Source: Candidatus Acidiferrales bacterium (GTDB lineage: Bacteria; Acidobacteriota; Terriglobia; Acidiferrales; UBA7541). Taken from it: a stretch of DNA of 41,212 nucleotides. The notes under the pieces were generated by a model that worked only from the letters and a program-made list of their open reading frames with translations, did not search any database and was not told the origin of the DNA. Shown here one piece after another: positions 19,137 through 25,919 of this stretch; the first letter of the stretch is position 1; each line of letters starts with the position of its first letter. A program made the translations under genes and the position numbers. The DNA lies in contig JARLGK010000112.1 of assembly GCA_031296075.1 (NCBI GenBank), positions 1-41,212 of the forward strand. Reading direction: 5' to 3'.

Positions 19137-20618
19137 TCAGCTGCGGTCGCGCTTCTTCTTCTCGGGGTGCCACTTTCGCTTATCGCTGTGGCGGGGCTCG
19201 TGCTTCGTGATGCGGCGAGGCTCCCGGCCCGGATCCAGGCGAGGCGCGCTCTTTTTCAGCCGCTGCGTAAAGCGAATCGGCGTGCCGATGAAGTCGAAGG
19301 CTTCGCGCAGACGATTCTCGAGAAATCGCTGATAGCTGAAATGCAGCGGCTTGGTCTGATTCGTGAAGAGCACAAACGTGGGCGGTCCAGCCGTGGCCTG
19401 CGTCAGATAGTAGATTTTTACCTTGCGGCTCGCCGGCGAAGTCCCGCGCTCAAGATCCACGCCCGCCAGCCACCGGTTCAGCTCGCCGGTTGAAATCCGC
19501 CGCTGGCGCGCTTCGGAGACGCGATCGATCAGCGTGTAGAGCTTCTCGACTCGCTCGCCGGTCAGCGCGGACAGAAACACGATGGGCGCAAACGCGAGAA
19601 ATTTGAATTTTTCCCGCACGAGCGGCTCGTAATCCGCGAGCAGCTTACTCGGATTTCCGCCCGCGCCCTTGCCGCCGTGCTTCTTTTCCTTCGCGGCCTT
19701 CTCCTGCGCGGCTTCGAGCGCCAGGTCCCATTTGTTCATCGCGATGATTACCGACCGCCCCGACTGCTCGGCGTAACTCGCGATGGTCGCGTCGTGCGAT
19801 GTGACGCCCACCGACCCGTCCACCACGATTACCGCGATGTCCGCGCGCTCCAGGTGACGCCGCGCCATGATCACGCTCAATTTTTCGGCAATGAGCTTCG
19901 TCTTGCCCTTGCGGCGGATTCCCGCGGTGTCGAGAAAACGGTACGTTTTCCCGTGGCGCTCGACCACCGTATCCACGGCGTCCCGCGTGGTGCCCGGCTC
20001 CGGCGAGACAATGGACCTCTCCGCGCCCACGAGTTGATTCAGCAGCGTGGACTTCCCCACGTTCGGGCGTCCGATGATGGCGATGTTGACGTCCGGCCTC
20101 TGTTCGACCGGTTCGCCTGTCGGGAAATCCTTGGTCACCGCATCGAGCAGCGTATCAACGCCAAACCCGTGCTCGGCCGAAATCGGAAATATTTGGTCGC
20201 CCAGCTCGTAAAACTGTGCGGCCAGCTCCATCTGTTTCGGCGAGTCCACTTTATTCACGGCGAGCACGGGCGGCTTGCCGGCGCGGCGCAGCAATTGAAA
20301 AAGCTCGGCATCCAGCGGCACCGGACCTTCGCGGCCGTCCACGACCTGCACCACGCACGCTGCGTTTTCGATCGCCACGCGCGCCTGCCGGAGAATTTCG
20401 CCGGGAATTCCGGCCTTGTCCTCGGGCACGATTCCGCCCGTATCCACCACTTCAAACGCGCGGCCTTCCCAATTGGCCATGCCGTAGATGCGGTCGCGCG
20501 TGATGCCGGGTTCGTTCGTGACGATGGACCGCCGCGTGCCGGTCAGGCGGTTGAATAGCGTGGACTTCCCCACATTGGGGCGTCCGACGATCACGATGGA
20601 CGGGAGCTTCGAGGTCAT
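19137..20618 (-). CDS. der: ribosome biogenesis GTPase Der (EngA)
   Basis: Der is an essential GTPase with two tandem G domains that acts in 50S subunit assembly. The 493-residue protein shows GRPNVGKST at residues 12-20, DTGG near 58 and NKVD near 120 in domain 1. Domain 2 has GRPNVGKST near 183, DTAGI near 230 and NKWD near 295. A KH-like domain follows to about 455. The last 35 residues are a highly basic tail (Lys/Arg/His), a plausible rRNA-contact extension. The start codon is one base beyond the dnaG stop, so translational coupling is likely. Confidence 0.98.
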   Translation of the reverse strand: MTSKLPSIVIVGRPNVGKSTLFNRLTGTRRSIVTNEPGITRDRIYGMANWEGRAFEVVDTGGIVPEDKAGIPGEILRQARVAIENAACVVQVVDGREGPVPLDAELFQLLRRAGKPPVLAVNKVDSPKQMELAAQFYELGDQIFPISAEHGFGVDTLLDAVTKDFPTGEPVEQRPDVNIAIIGRPNVGKSTLLNQLVGAERSIVSPEPGTTRDAVDTVVERHGKTYRFLDTAGIRRKGKTKLIAEKLSVIMARRHLERADIAVIVVDGSVGVTSHDATIASYAEQSGRSVIIAMNKWDLALEAAQEKAAKEKKHGGKGAGGNPSKLLADYEPLVREKFKFLAFAPIVFLSALTGERVEKLYTLIDRVSEARQRRISTGELNRWLAGVDLERGTSPASRKVKIYYLTQATAGPPTFVLFTNQTKPLHFSYQRFLENRLREAFDFIGTPIRFTQRLKKSAPRLDPGREPRRITKHEPRHSDKRKWHPEKKKRDRS

Positions 20619-20619
20619 T

Positions 20620-22362
20620 TCAGCGTTGCGCTAATTTTTTCTGCAGTTCCAATCGTTGGGTAAGCAGGCGATTCAATTCGCCGGGGGAGGCCTTGGACTC
20701 GATCTTCTGCTGCAATTCGGCGAGCTCCACTTCGTCCCGGCGGCTTCGCAGCACGCTCAGACAGCTTTCCGCCGATTCCCAGGTCGCTTCGCCGGACGAT
20801 TCGAAAAGGATCTCGAACAATAAGCGGCGGTCTTTCTCTTCCAGCGCGGCGGCCAGCATCGTTGGGTCGGGCGCTTCGCCCACCTTGGAGATTAACAGTT
20901 CCAGGATTTTTTCGCTCTCCAGACCGCGGTGTAGGGCGCTCGAAATGATTTCGTGCGCGAGTTTTTCCCGAAATCCCTCGGCTTCGATGAGCATGCGGAT
21001 CAATTGCCGCTCGGCGGGCTTGACGACCGGCGTCAGCAGCTCCGCCTTCGGCTTCACTTCGCTGCGGCGCTCGGTGGCGGCGCGGCGCAGCGCCTCGCGC
21101 AGCACGGGCTCGTCCACGCGCAATTCCGAAGCGATTCGCGTGGCCCATTCCGAACGCAGCAGCCGATCCGGAAGCCGCTGCACGTAAGGCATCAGAAAAT
21201 TCAGCGCGGCAACCTTTCCCGCGGCGGTCGTGCGGTCCATCTGCCGCGCGCGCCCAATCAAATAATCGAGATAGGGAGGCGCCTGCGCGAGCAATTTGCG
21301 ATAGGCGTCCGCACCCTGCTCCTTCAGGAATTTGTCGGGATCGGCGCCGCCCGGCAGAGCCAGCACGCGTACGTCGAATTCTTTTTCGAGCAGCAGCGTC
21401 AACGAGCGTTCGGTCGCGATCTGACCAGCCGTGTCCGGGTCGTAATTCACCACCACGCGGCGCGTGAACCGGCCCAGCAGCTTTATCTGGGGTTCGGCCA
21501 GGCTCGTTCCGCAGCTGGCGACCACATTCGTGATTCCCGCGCGCGCCACGGCGATCGCGTCCATATAGCCTTCGACCAGAATTCCGAAATCGCTTTTCCG
21601 CAGCTCCTCTTTCGCGCGGTCCAGATGATAAAGCACGTTGCTTTTCGAATAGATCGGCGTTTCGGGCGAGTTCATGTATTTCGGCATGTCGTCGCCCATC
21701 GAGCGCCCGCCGAATGCGATCACCTTTCCGGCCTCGTTCGCGATCGGGAACATGATGCGGCGGCGAAAGCGGTCGTAAAGTCGCCCGCTTTGGTCGCGCG
21801 AAAACAGGCCCGAGGCTTCCAGCAGCTTCTCGGGATATTTCGATTTCAACTGGCGCAGCAGCGCGTCGCCGGAGGACGGGGCCCATCCCAGGCCAAAGCG
21901 TTTCATCGCTTCGACGTCCAAGCCGCGGTCTTCGAGATACCCCGCCGCGACTTTGCCTTCGTGACCTTCCTGAAGTTGCCGCGCGAAGAATGACGCCGCC
22001 TCGCGGTGCATTTCCACCAGCACGCTGCGCTGCTGATTCTCGCGATGTTCTTCCGGCGAACGCTCGCGCGGCCTGGGAATCGGAATGCCGCACTTTTCGG
22101 CGACGATTCGTATGGCCTCGGGAAACGGGCACTTGTCCATTTCCATCACGAATTTGAAGACGTCCCCGCCCGCGCCGCAGCCAAAGCAGTGATAAATCTG
22201 CCGCACCGGATGCACGGCAAACGATGGAGACTTTTCCTGGTGAAATGGGCATAGCCCAGTGAAATTCTGGCCCGTCTTCTTCAGGCGGACGTATTCCCCG
22301 ATCACGCGGACGATGTCCGCCTGCTGCTTCACCTTCTCCGCGAATGATCCTGCTTCAGCCAT
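20620..22362 (-). CDS. dnaG: DNA primase DnaG
   Basis: DnaG makes RNA primers at the replication fork. The 580-residue protein has an N-terminal zinc-binding domain (C38, H41, C59, C62). The TOPRIM catalytic core has the conserved glutamate in EGYMDA near 262 and NYDPDTAG near 310. The C-terminal helicase-interaction region is helical. The length is typical. The ATG at 22362 begins the standard MxxxxSFAEKVKQQADIV segment, but there is no clear Shine-Dalgarno sequence. Immediately upstream, five bases away, lies an inverted-repeat arm of the four-helix-bundle element, which seems to have replaced the native leader. Confidence 0.98.
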   Translation of the reverse strand: MAEAGSFAEKVKQQADIVRVIGEYVRLKKTGQNFTGLCPFHQEKSPSFAVHPVRQIYHCFGCGAGGDVFKFVMEMDKCPFPEAIRIVAEKCGIPIPRPRERSPEEHRENQQRSVLVEMHREAASFFARQLQEGHEGKVAAGYLEDRGLDVEAMKRFGLGWAPSSGDALLRQLKSKYPEKLLEASGLFSRDQSGRLYDRFRRRIMFPIANEAGKVIAFGGRSMGDDMPKYMNSPETPIYSKSNVLYHLDRAKEELRKSDFGILVEGYMDAIAVARAGITNVVASCGTSLAEPQIKLLGRFTRRVVVNYDPDTAGQIATERSLTLLLEKEFDVRVLALPGGADPDKFLKEQGADAYRKLLAQAPPYLDYLIGRARQMDRTTAAGKVAALNFLMPYVQRLPDRLLRSEWATRIASELRVDEPVLREALRRAATERRSEVKPKAELLTPVVKPAERQLIRMLIEAEGFREKLAHEIISSALHRGLESEKILELLISKVGEAPDPTMLAAALEEKDRRLLFEILFESSGEATWESAESCLSVLRSRRDEVELAELQQKIESKASPGELNRLLTQRLELQKKLAQR

Positions 22363-22367
22363 AGTGA

Positions 22368-22398
22368 CGAAACTCGAAAAACGAAATTCGAAACTCGC
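22368..22398. repeat. left inverted arm of four heptamers
   Basis: On the plus strand it reads CG, then AAACTCG, AAAAACG, AAATTCG, AAACTCG, then C. It lies between the four-helix-bundle stop codon (22405) and the dnaG start codon. Confidence 0.85.
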
Positions 22399-22404
22399 TA
22401 CTCC

Positions 22405-22848
22405 TCAATCTGCCGGTCGGCTATTCATTGCGAGCCGCTGAGTCGCCCGGATATAGCCATTCAGGACCTGGATGACTCTTTGCGCTGCGGCGTCGATATC
22501 CTTCCATTCTTGAGACGAGATGTACGCGGCATCCAGCGCCGAAGTTAAGTGAACCCGTAGTTCGAAGGCTGAACCCCGGGCATGACGACAAAATTGGACA
22601 TTCTCCTTATAGGAGAACCGACCGAAGCCCTCAGCAACGTTCGCAGTAACCGATAGAGCCGCCCGCCGCATCTGGTCGATCAAGGCGTGCCTCTCCTCGC
22701 TTGGAAATCTTCGGGTGATCGTGTAAATGGTCATTCGCAATTCCCTTCCAAGTCTCCAAGCATCCAGGTCAGTAAAATCCCGCACCGGATTTGCGCCGAT
22801 GGTAGATGGTTTGGCGAGTTTCGAATTTCGAGTTTCGAGTTTCGCCAT
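22405..22848 (-). CDS. four-helix bundle protein (S23 / 23S rRNA IVS family)
   Basis: The 147-residue product has the family core DLDAWRLGRELRMTIYTITRRFP (about 27-49), then QMRRAALSVTANVAEGFGR near 60-78, and two more amphipathic helices. The family is named after proteins encoded in 23S rRNA intervening sequences and includes the Avd-like accessory fold; the free-standing members have no settled role. The first 14 residues (MAKLETRNSKLAK) are translated from the right inverted arm, so the native protein may start later (for example GTG at 22785). No strong ribosome site supports either start. Confidence is high for family and low for start. Confidence 0.85.
   Translation of the reverse strand: MAKLETRNSKLAKPSTIGANPVRDFTDLDAWRLGRELRMTIYTITRRFPSEERHALIDQMRRAALSVTANVAEGFGRFSYKENVQFCRHARGSAFELRVHLTSALDAAYISSQEWKDIDAAAQRVIQVLNGYIRATQRLAMNSRPAD
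22814..22844. repeat. right inverted arm of four heptamers
   Basis: Its reverse complement reads CG, AAACTCG, AAACTCG, AAATTCG, AAACTCG, C. It differs from the left arm at two bases, both in the second heptamer. It overlaps codons 2-12 of the four-helix-bundle gene as read from 22848. Confidence 0.85.
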
Positions 22849-22884
22849 CGCCCTATCCAGGAGAGCACCTTTAGCATCATGCCA

Positions 22885-25305
22885 TCAGGATTTCAACTCG
22901 GCGATGGTAATCGCCGTTCCGCCGCGATCTTCCGCCTCCGCGTGAATGCTGGCCACGAGCGGGTGCGACGACAAATATTCTGCAAGACCTCTCCGCAGCG
23001 CGCCCTTGCCGTGCCCGTGAATAATTCGCACTCGAAGAAGATCGCGCAAAGCCGCTTCGTCGATAAACTTATCCACTCGGTTTGTGGCTTCCTCAACCGT
23101 GCAGCCGATCACGTTGATTTCCTCGCCGGCGGCTTCATCGCTCGGCTGCGTGTGAACGGTAATTCCGCGCGGGCGTTCCGGCGCAGCGCCGCTCGGTTTC
23201 ACCGAACTCGCGCCGCTCTCGATGGCGACAATATCGGCCAGCGGAATCTTCATGCGCAGCGGCCCGGCTTCGACTTCGGCGATCCGGCCGTCATGCCGGC
23301 GAAATACGACCACCTGCTTGAATCCCTTCACATGCACGCGTGTTCCGGCTGAAAGCTGCTCGGGCGCTACAGGCTTTGGGGGTGCTTCGACGCCCACGCC
23401 GAGGTCCTGCTGCGACGCGGCGAGCGTGTCAATGACCGCGGCATCGGCTTCCGCGCGCGCGTCCCCGCCAAGCTTCCCCATGCGGCGCCCGGCCTGCTTT
23501 TCCAACTGCGCGCGAAACGTGCGGTCCTTGATGTCGGCGGCAAGCCGCTGAACCTCGCTTTCCAGCCGCTTCTGCGTGGCGAGGAAACTCTTTTCCAGTT
23601 CGGCGATGCGTTTTTTCTGCCGCTCGACCCATTCCGTTTGCAGCTCCCGGCGGGCGGCCTCGAGTTGTGCGAGCTGCTCGCGGCCCTGGCGCGTCACCTC
23701 TTCCATCTCGTCGCGGCTGCCGTGGAGATAGGCGATCAGGTCGCGCGCCTCGCGCGATTCCGGCGACAGGCTCGCGTTGGCGTGATCCACCACACGCGCG
23801 GGCAAGCCGAGCCGCCGCGCGATTTCAATCCCGCTCGACGTTCCCGGCACGCCGAAGAGCAGCCGGTAGGTCGGCCGCAGATTCACCTGGTCGAATTCCA
23901 TCGCGGCGTTCACGATTCCCGGCGTTGTGGAGGCGTATGCCTTGAGGCGGTCGTGATGCGTCGTCGCAAGCGTGAGGGCGCGGCGCGCGCGAAACTCCTC
24001 GAGGAGAGCCACGGAGAGCGCGGCGCCTTCTTCGGGCGCCGTGCCCGTTCCCATTTCATCCACGAGAATCAGCGAACGGTCCGTCGCGATTTCCAGCATC
24101 GCCTTCAGATTCAACATGTGCGCCGAAAATGTCGAAAGGTCTGCGGCGATGGACTGCTCGTCGCCAATATCCGCGAGGACGCGGTCGAAGACGGGCATCT
24201 CGGCGCGCTCCGCCGCTACGGGAATTCCTGATTGCGCGGAAAGCGCCGCGAGTCCGACGGTCTTCAGCGAAACCGTCTTGCCTCCGGTGTTCGGCCCGCT
24301 GACGACCATCACCGTCTCGTCGCCGCCCAGCGCGAGACTCATGGGCACGGCCTTGCGGCCCTGCGGCCGCAGCGTTGCTTCAAGCACCGGATTGCGCGCC
24401 GCTTCCAGTCCCAGCGAATTCCCCGACGTGAATTCAGGCACGACGCAATCAAACTCCCGCGCAAACCGGGCGCGCGCGAAAATAGAATCGAGATGCGCGA
24501 TGGATGCGGCCGCCGCTTCGAGCGGACCCTGCTCCGCCCGCACGCGGTTCGTAAGCTCGTCGAGGATGCGCGCAATCTCGCTGATTTCGTCCTCGCCCAG
24601 CTGCACGAGGCGATTGTTCAAATCAATGGCCTCGAGCGGCTCGACGAACACCGTCTGTCCCGTGGCGCTCGCCGCGTGGACCACTCCGGGAACAGCGCGA
24701 CGGTCGGAAGCGCGCACCGGAATCACGAAGCGGTCGTTCCGCAGAGTGACGTAATCCTCGCCCGCCGGTTCCCCGCGCGTGCGCAATATCTTTTCGAGCG
24801 AATGCCGAATTGTGACGCGCGCCTGGATCATGCTGGCGCGAATGCGTTTTAGTTGCTGCGAAGCGTCGTCGCTGATTTCGCCGCTGGGCAGTACCGCGCG
24901 GCGAATCGCAGTCAAGAGCGGACGGAAATCGGCAAGCGCTGCGGCGCGTTCCGCCAAACGCGGATGCTTCGCGGCCTCGGTCTTGAATGTCTGGCGGACT
25001 GCATCCGCGTTTTCCGCAAGCGAAGCGACGTCGAGCAGCTCCGCCGGCGTCAGCATTGAACCAGGCATGCCCAGCCGCGCGAGCCACGCGTCCGGATCGG
25101 CCAGCGAGCCAAATCCCAGCTCCGAGCCCGCGCGCAGGTAAGCGATGGCTTCGCGGACCAGCTCGAACTCAGCATCGAGCGACGCGACGTCCTGCTGAGG
25201 GACGAGCGCCTCGATCGCGCGACGACCGGGTACACAGGTCGTCGAGCGGCTGACGATATCCTTCAGCCGGTCGAATTCGAGAAGTTCTTCTGCGGGGCGA
25301 GACAC
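22885..25305 (-). CDS. mutS2: MutS2 family ATPase/endonuclease
   Basis: MutS2 binds branched DNA or collided ribosomes depending on species; it is not the mismatch-repair MutS. The 806-residue protein has clamp/lever helices at the N-terminus and the ABC-type ATPase with Walker A GPNTGGKT near 335. Walker B ILVDEMGTGT lies near 415. A long charged coiled coil (about 520-610) and a KOW-like middle follow. The C-terminal Smr nuclease domain has IIHGHGKGALR near 765. The start is GTG with GAGG five bases upstream. The four-helix-bundle element begins 36 bases after the stop codon. Confidence 0.97.
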   Translation of the reverse strand: MSRPAEELLEFDRLKDIVSRSTTCVPGRRAIEALVPQQDVASLDAEFELVREAIAYLRAGSELGFGSLADPDAWLARLGMPGSMLTPAELLDVASLAENADAVRQTFKTEAAKHPRLAERAAALADFRPLLTAIRRAVLPSGEISDDASQQLKRIRASMIQARVTIRHSLEKILRTRGEPAGEDYVTLRNDRFVIPVRASDRRAVPGVVHAASATGQTVFVEPLEAIDLNNRLVQLGEDEISEIARILDELTNRVRAEQGPLEAAAASIAHLDSIFARARFAREFDCVVPEFTSGNSLGLEAARNPVLEATLRPQGRKAVPMSLALGGDETVMVVSGPNTGGKTVSLKTVGLAALSAQSGIPVAAERAEMPVFDRVLADIGDEQSIAADLSTFSAHMLNLKAMLEIATDRSLILVDEMGTGTAPEEGAALSVALLEEFRARRALTLATTHHDRLKAYASTTPGIVNAAMEFDQVNLRPTYRLLFGVPGTSSGIEIARRLGLPARVVDHANASLSPESREARDLIAYLHGSRDEMEEVTRQGREQLAQLEAARRELQTEWVERQKKRIAELEKSFLATQKRLESEVQRLAADIKDRTFRAQLEKQAGRRMGKLGGDARAEADAAVIDTLAASQQDLGVGVEAPPKPVAPEQLSAGTRVHVKGFKQVVVFRRHDGRIAEVEAGPLRMKIPLADIVAIESGASSVKPSGAAPERPRGITVHTQPSDEAAGEEINVIGCTVEEATNRVDKFIDEAALRDLLRVRIIHGHGKGALRRGLAEYLSSHPLVASIHAEAEDRGGTAITIAELKS

Positions 25306-25361
25306 GGAGACCTCGAGATCGATTGTAGCCCGGTTAGCTATTGGAAATCAGCGAGCGTCGA

Positions 25362-25919
25362 TCAGCGCAATTCGAAATGCTCTGTGAGGTAGGTGGCCGC
25401 ATCGGCGGGAGAAGACGCCACGTACACGAGTGGCTCGCCGCGCTCGCCCCAGCGCGAAGAATGCCCGAGCTCGACTTCGCGCACCCGCTCGATCACCGGC
25501 TGCCAGAAATCCCCGAGAACGACCAACGGCTTCCTGCTCATCGTGCCTTTGTTGAGCATCTCCCAGACGACGGCGAGTTCGACGAGCGTTCCCGTGCCGC
25601 CGGGGCAGGTGACATACCCATGCCCGCGTTTGACCAGTTCGAAAAGCCGGTCCTGCCAGGTCTTCACACGCACTTCTTCGTCCACCCAGCGGTTCGCACG
25701 ACTCTTGAAGAATTTCGTCGTCACGGCGAGCGTGCGCCCGCCCCCTTGTTTCGCGCCGCGCGAAACGGCTTCCATCACGCCGGTGTATCCTCCGCTGCAA
25801 ATAACCAGCCCCTTTTCGGCCAGCGCGACTCCCAGCGCCTGCGCCTGGTCGTAGTGCGCATCGCCTTCGCGCGGCCGCGAGCTGCCGAATACGGTGATAA
25901 TTTTCGCAGGCCGCTTCAT
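25362..25919 (-). CDS. LOG family / TIGR00730 Rossmann protein
   Basis: The 185-residue protein matches the LOG (lysine-decarboxylase-like fold) family. Known plant and bacterial members release cytokinin base from nucleotide, and bacterial homologues hydrolyse nucleotide monophosphates such as AMP (PpnN-like). Visible motifs are VFGSSRP near 10, SGGYTGVMEAVSRGA near 42-56 and PGGTGTLVE near 110, which includes the conserved glutamate. It overlaps the preceding carboxypeptidase gene by four bases (ATGA, 25916-25919), so the two are coupled. Which nucleotide it hydrolyses cannot be told from sequence. Confidence 0.9.
   Translation of the reverse strand: MKRPAKIITVFGSSRPREGDAHYDQAQALGVALAEKGLVICSGGYTGVMEAVSRGAKQGGGRTLAVTTKFFKSRANRWVDEEVRVKTWQDRLFELVKRGHGYVTCPGGTGTLVELAVVWEMLNKGTMSRKPLVVLGDFWQPVIERVREVELGHSSRWGERGEPLVYVASSPADAATYLTEHFELR

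Follow-up and report, generated by a model that had tools for sequence, protein, structure and literature searches.

Inverted tandem heptamer arrays bound S23 four-helix-bundle genes across bacteria and point to a probable REPIN-like system

The window, by which we mean the whole 41,212-nucleotide stretch of DNA analysed here, carries on its minus strand, in this order, mutS2 (22,885..25,305), an S23 gene (22,405..22,848) and dnaG (20,620..22,362). The S23 gene, of the 23S_rRNA_IVP four-helix-bundle type and with a product of 147 amino acids, is co-directional with its upstream neighbour mutS2 and its downstream neighbour dnaG, and lies in an element that spans, junction bases included, 22,363..22,848 (minus strand). 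This element is bounded by two inverted arms at the positions given in the first-pass annotation. The upstream arm (22,814..22,844, minus strand), 5′ of the S23 domain in gene sense, consists of the heptamers AAACTCG, AAACTCG, AAATTCG and AAACTCG and codes for residues 2-12 of the S23 ORF, and the downstream arm (22,368..22,398, minus strand) ends five bases from the dnaG start at 22,362, both as had been described. The sequence at 22,368-22,398 is CGAAACTCGAAAAACGAAATTCGAAACTCGC, equal to the reverse complement of the other arm at 29 of 31 bases; this match is far beyond chance, with an arm-to-arm local score of 25 where 300 dinucleotide-preserving shuffles reached 12 at most. Both arms are built of AAAYTCG heptamers. 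The four units per arm of the earlier description hold for the arm at the S23 start, whereas the dnaG-side arm has three clean heptamers and one degenerate unit, AAAAACG. No further arrays of period 7-10 were found elsewhere in the 41-kb window.

The S23 family came to light with the rRNA intervening sequences described in the 1990s, and structures have been solved for two members, 2GSC and 2RLD. The assignment of the enclosed gene to this family, already made in the first-pass annotation, is borne out by matches to PF05635 (E=7.8e-31, 106.9 bits against a gathering cut-off of 33.8) and to TIGR02436, four helix bundle protein. Its structural model matches 2GSC and also Avd, a partner of diversity-generating reverse transcriptases that handles RNA. 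The core is predicted with confidence as a four-helix bundle (mean pLDDT 89), whereas residues 1-17, which include the arm-coded stretch, are predicted to be disordered (pLDDT <50), so that it seems incidental that the arm encodes residues 2-12. Superposition of the model on Avd gives TM-scores by target length of 0.89 (4DWL) and 0.81 (8UB7) at a sequence identity of 11-14%, and the predicted fold of S23 is that of Avd. Across 186 S23 proteins, N49 and G53 (N70 and G74 of the window protein) are invariant and Q38, E52, E75, S45 and R41 are conserved at 96-99%, a set of polar residues which suggests an active or binding site. Values of dN/dS between 0.06 and 0.17 in close S23 pairs, including a pair of copies within one genome, are solid sequence evidence of strong purifying selection on S23. 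We know of no nuclease, transposase or polymerase motif in these proteins.

The 23S rRNA intervening sequence (IVS) of Coxiella burnetii contains an S23 ORF and inverted ends that form a 28-bp stem, GACAGAT tandem heptamers precede the S23 start codon in copy numbers that vary among strains, and cleavage by RNase III falls at the first heptamer (PMC4990558). The likeness of the window element to such sequences, which had been noted for the protein family and the inverted repeats, is therefore stronger than claimed, extending to size (428-444 nt) and to tandem heptamers beside the S23 gene; the window element, like an IVS, is an S23 ORF between inverted repeats. It differs in lying outside 23S rRNA, between the protein genes mutS2 and dnaG, and in that heptamers make up both of its arms, diverse and concerted over many elements, whereas the Coxiella study treats the IVS heptamers as a local detail (PMC4990558). 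We propose that the feature is a single compact element, about 480 nt long, made of an S23 gene with inverted short-tandem-repeat arrays as its ends, and that it probably represents the 23S rRNA intervening sequence in free-standing form.

Inverted arms proved to be a solid and general feature of S23 genes. They were scored as the best inverted match between 160-nt flanks, with a score of at least 14, and by this measure are present at 65% of 84 usable S23 genes from 61 related genomes (set 1), a search that the first-pass annotation had recommended. The corresponding values are 2.4% for the direct orientation, 0.7% for flanks taken from different elements and 0.8% for control windows of the same loci. 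Strong short-period arrays (score of at least 16 of 21), with period 7 dominant, occur at 81% of the set 1 genes and in 8% of controls. Set 2, drawn from named genomes and plasmids, has 86 loci, four of which repeat set 1 loci; it was gathered with a single protein query and is biased towards the subfamily of that query. Here 76% are armed, against 5.5% of mismatched pairs. The armed loci of set 2 comprise 14 of 17 in Acidobacteria, 8 of 10 in Gemmatimonadetes, 18 of 22 in Alphaproteobacteria, 9 of 14 in Planctomycetes, 4 of 4 in Betaproteobacteria, 4 of 7 in Chloroflexi, 4 of 5 in Cyanobacteria, 2 of 2 in Bacteroidetes, 1 of 1 in Verrucomicrobia and 1 of 2 in Deltaproteobacteria. Armed S23 genes thus span at least ten phyla and proteobacterial classes, and between roughly a quarter and a third of the S23 genes have no detectable arms.

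The arms are also specific to S23 genes. Within 250 nt of S23 there are 1.56 arrays per kb, compared with 0.077 per kb in the remainder of the same loci, a difference of about 20-fold. Among S23-selected and unselected loci, GxxExxY loci apart, all 71 inverted array pairs with an interior of 280-650 nt enclose an S23 gene, and none of those with an interior below 280 nt does. A purely mutational origin, in which template switching between the arms (quasi-palindrome correction) and slippage homogenise the arrays and S23 is a tolerant passenger, leaves unexplained both this concentration and the gap in size that separates pairs with a gene from pairs without one.

The repeat unit itself is far from constant. 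Across 117 armed elements (median length 475 nt, median arm 28 nt) there are 83 different units, the period is nearly always 7, and the upstream arm is purine-rich in 91%. Unit sequence tracks S23 protein similarity (Mantel r 0.26, permutation maximum 0.08), and distant S23 genes in one genome have no unit in common, indicating that the unit follows the S23 protein lineage and not the genome. This link, too, has no place in the purely mutational account. In the window's own genome, the second S23 gene has arms of a different unit, GAGGGAY, and just two more AAAYTCG arrays were found, both unpaired. In three other genomes (G015, G037 and G038, of three families), S23 elements apparently lie between atpG and atpD (L033/L112, L030/L099 and L029/L098), with a different heptamer unit in each.

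In Rhizobiales, an S23 element is found between nuoC and nuoD, and the 34 loci read at this junction allow the two arms to be compared among orthologues. The unit varies by genome, being TAGGCAA, TAGCGAA, TGGCGAA, CGGCAAT or GTGAGTA. Units were called on each side separately with periodicity as the sole criterion, and orthologues were compared at a gene identity below 0.75. The two sides of one element differ by a mean of 0.97 mismatches of 7 (32 elements), while the same side differs between orthologues by 2.16 (upstream) and 1.82 (downstream) of 7, with a random expectation of 3.67 (p=6e-9). Agreement within elements is thus better than between orthologues, the opposite of what independent evolution of the arms since insertion would give, and we regard the concerted evolution of the arms as solid. 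The resulting pattern is unusual, in that arms diverge completely between orthologous elements yet remain mutual mirror images. Such concert can be produced either by selection on pairing or by exchange between the arms. The mutational account finds support here, since concerted arm change and unit turnover occur at fixed sites whether or not a gene lies inside; given the points that it leaves unexplained, we consider it quite improbable as the whole story. At five loci of this junction (L319, L329, L332, L333 and L338) we observed a different small gene at the site used by S23 elements in relatives; its product starts with a GQCLCGAV-type motif and is probably a GFA-family protein.

Selection on pairing would be expected if the element acted as RNA. 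According to this explanation, the arms are kept as a long stem in the operon transcript, an RNase III cut frees the S23 message and separates its neighbours, S23 binds the RNA or times its processing, and the element spreads only passively. The RNase III cut at the first heptamer and the 28-bp stem of the Coxiella IVS (PMC4990558) are in keeping with it, as is the predicted RNA fold of the window element, in which the arms are paired (-189 kcal/mol, z -3.75). Orientation also agrees: with usable neighbours, the upstream gene is co-directional with S23 at 77 of 83 loci and both neighbours are at 66 of 83, and the class with a divergent upstream and a sense downstream neighbour is found at 0 of 83 S23 loci against 16% of background gene triples. 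This sense orientation, mostly within operons, suggests that S23 elements are probably expressed by read-through. Selection on RNA should, however, favour G.U over A.C among the arm mismatches, and in the main set the two are equally frequent (166 and 158, p=0.70); a weak lean to G.U appears in the Rhizobiales subset only (68 and 44, p=0.03). Selection on RNA pairing is therefore not supported by the main mismatch comparison, and the lack of a G.U bias agrees with the mutational account. The structured RNA and protein pair envisaged in the first-pass annotation is a possible reading, with the predicted pairing of the arms in its favour and no mismatch signature for it in the main set. Rfam gave no match in 20,600-25,400. 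As the RNA-level explanation also leaves the unit turnover (83 units in 117 elements) and the link between unit and S23 protein unexplained, we regard it as rather unlikely.

The mutS2-dnaG junction was read in 19 genomes of the genus, the window's own (G000) included. As the annotation had anticipated, empty sites exist: 16 of these junctions are empty, and an S23 gene is found at the other three, those of G000, G018 and G002; one genome of another genus of the same family (G023) has an S23 gene at this junction too. The empty sites, here and at nuoC-nuoD junctions in relatives, are a solid observation. At dnaG, the arm units are of the GAAAATG type in G018 and G002 and of the GAAAYTC type in G000 and G023, and the S23 copy of G018 carries an in-frame TAG. 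The element at dnaG is thus optional and decaying, and its unit varies between genomes. In G018, both S23 genes (L079 and L106) have an in-frame TAG, at different positions, with arms that persist while the genes decay. An AGAAGG-like ribosome-binding motif precedes dnaG in some of the empty genus genomes; in G000 and G018, where the right arm adjoins the dnaG start, the bases immediately ahead of the gene show no such motif. Since a clear motif is also missing in other empty-site members of the genus, a loss of the motif at dnaG is suggestive only.

That arms and gene form one unit, as first proposed from the window, is a solid result, given the arms at S23 genes in at least ten phyla and classes and arm-to-arm copies within one genome. 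Two S23 copies of one Gemmatimonadaceae genome (L242 and L247) are 90% identical over about 525 nt, from arm to arm, in unrelated flanks, and a second such case involves two related genomes (L114 and L119). The stretch shared by L242 and L247 comprises exactly the arms and the gene, so that the unit can, to judge by this alignment, be copied whole; such pairs are the best evidence of a unit moving or being copied as such. Many elements have been vertically inherited at one site, such as nuoC-nuoD across Rhizobiales, which makes current movement rare. Spread by viruses was considered and set aside, with one weak match in viral contigs.

Empty sites, inverted ends and whole-unit copies are also what an ordinary non-autonomous transposon would show; S23 would then be its cargo, and a conventional transposase would act in trans on the heptamer arms, which would serve as the terminal inverted repeats. 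The first-pass annotation had offered GCCAT/ATGGC as a possible target duplication; the match is present at both edges, but as a general rule there is no target site duplication, matches between left and right flanks being no longer than between unrelated elements (p=0.16). Edge matches at single sites, namely ATGGC at dnaG in G000, ATGGCTGA in G023 and ATGAC in L328, are suggestive of duplication at those sites only. The ends moreover lack constant sequence, even among elements of one genome, and the cargo of the heptamer class is always S23. A conventional transposon is accordingly a very improbable explanation.

Inverted arrays are also found without the gene. In Rhizobiaceae, AGCGAAT flanks an S23 gene and is dispersed as inverted pairs; (AGYGART)x3 occurs in 38 of 200 genomes of this family, and the reversed pattern in 1. 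With shared ancestry uncorrected, the array is present in 29 of 60 genomes with the matching S23 subfamily and 9 of 140 without it; when the arms of S23 itself are discounted, the figures become 12 (position-confirmed) to 21 of 60 against 9 of 140 (p 0.006 to 1e-6, phylogeny again uncorrected). The majority of the arrays read form inverted pairs that enclose 30-100 nt of unrelated sequence, and the gene-less pairs often start at a stop codon and often contain a terminator-like hairpin. These hairpins are not deletion copies of S23 elements, a candidate that we rejected because their interiors match neither S23 elements, beyond arm residues, nor one another. Their unrelated interiors, and the hairpins of the nine S23-negative genomes, imply that S23 may not be needed for hairpins.

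Gene-less sites can also be stable. At the rnj-mce junction of Rhizobiaceae (L396-L425), a gene-less inverted pair is present in about 23 of 25 readable relatives, a share that may be inflated because the listing favours the relatives closest to the query in sequence. The flanking genes encode a protein ending in ANEAWGKKPLVTVFVTR, which we take to be RNase J, and one starting MLGRLNHVA, presumably methylmalonyl-CoA epimerase. The units differ between genomes (AGCGAAT, GGTGAAT, AGGCAGT and octamers), showing that gene-less sites persist while the units of both arms change together. The first-pass annotation had held that arms kept in relatives lacking the gene would speak against an element. 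One nuoC-nuoD locus (L328) has indeed lost the gene and kept the arms, and many gene-less inverted arrays exist besides, so that arms can clearly exist without S23; to us, such arm-only loci seem to be non-autonomous or decayed members and not a refutation.

REPINs and their RAYT transposases are the nearest system in behaviour, by analogy, as there too inverted repeats are scattered between genes, a partner gene has the same repeats at its sides (seen here for AGCGAAT in Rhizobiaceae), repeat type is linked to partner lineage and most copies are gene-less (PMC3116915). They differ in the partner, which here is an S23 protein of Avd fold and not a Y1 tyrosine transposase (the window gene matches PF05635 only), and in the repeats, which here are tandem 7-mers and not fixed palindromic REPs. 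On balance, we think it probable that S23 elements belong to a REPIN/RAYT-like system in which S23 is the partner protein of a heptamer-array-bounded element and the 23S rRNA IVS is the best-known special case. S23, a putative homopentamer with the Avd fold, would bind the heptamer arrays of its own element, most likely in folded single-stranded form, and together with a host or other enzyme in trans would promote copying of the arms, as well as of gene-less heptamer hairpins elsewhere. As partner protein, S23 would thus stand to the hairpins as RAYT transposases stand to REPINs, and each S23 protein should recognise its own heptamer.

Intergenic tandem heptamers resembling the S23 arms have been described as STRR-like repeats in Xanthomonas (GGGAATC) and Nostoc (GGGGAYT) (PMC4692102) and as TAACTGA in Beggiatoaceae (PMC4679880). 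Xanthomonas campestris has 70 inverted heptamer pairs, and the Xanthomonas and Nostoc heptamers generally show no association with mobile elements (PMC4692102). Text searches of these two papers found no mention of S23 (PMC4692102, PMC4679880). In the open-licence PMC literature we found no description of free-standing S23 genes with heptamer arms, and the proposed REPIN-like S23-heptamer system seems not to have been described before. The crystallised 2GSC is the S23 protein XCC0516 of Xanthomonas campestris. The over-abundance of heptameric repeats in bacteria has, to our knowledge, been noted without explanation. S23 proteins and heptameric repeats are now linked across at least ten phyla and classes.

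A wider role is possible, though doubtful: S23 might be the trans-acting factor of an unrecognised transposase-free system that both generates and rewrites tandem heptamer arrays in bacteria, perhaps with the help of a reverse transcriptase or of the replication machinery, by analogy with Avd in diversity-generating retroelements. S23 shares with Avd the predicted four-helix-bundle fold; unlike those retroelements, the window element has no reverse transcriptase, template or variable repeat beside it, its immediate neighbours being mutS2 and dnaG. If such a system exists, one mechanism would account for rRNA intervening sequences, cyanobacterial STRRs, the GGGAATC repeats of Xanthomonas and the elements in operons.

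GxxExxY genes (PF13366, PDDEXK_3) make up another single-gene class with this architecture and are bracketed by inverted tandem arrays at 18 of 28 loci (within L141-L170; for example L149 at 1449-1893, L152 and L154). Their arrays have a period of 8-10 and fairly uniform units, of the CACAGAG and ACAGATGAAC types, and occur in the same genomes as S23. In the window's own genome (L006, contig C222, 1500-1680), an unpaired AAAYTCG array directly 3′ of the cdsA stop is followed by CACAGAG-type arrays, so that repeats of the S23 and GxxExxY types are adjacent without either gene. On a Pseudanabaena plasmid (L253, 3001-3360), cas6 and cas4 flank an S23 gene within a type I-D cas operon; heptamer arrays are numerous nearby and are in direct, not inverted, orientation at the gene.
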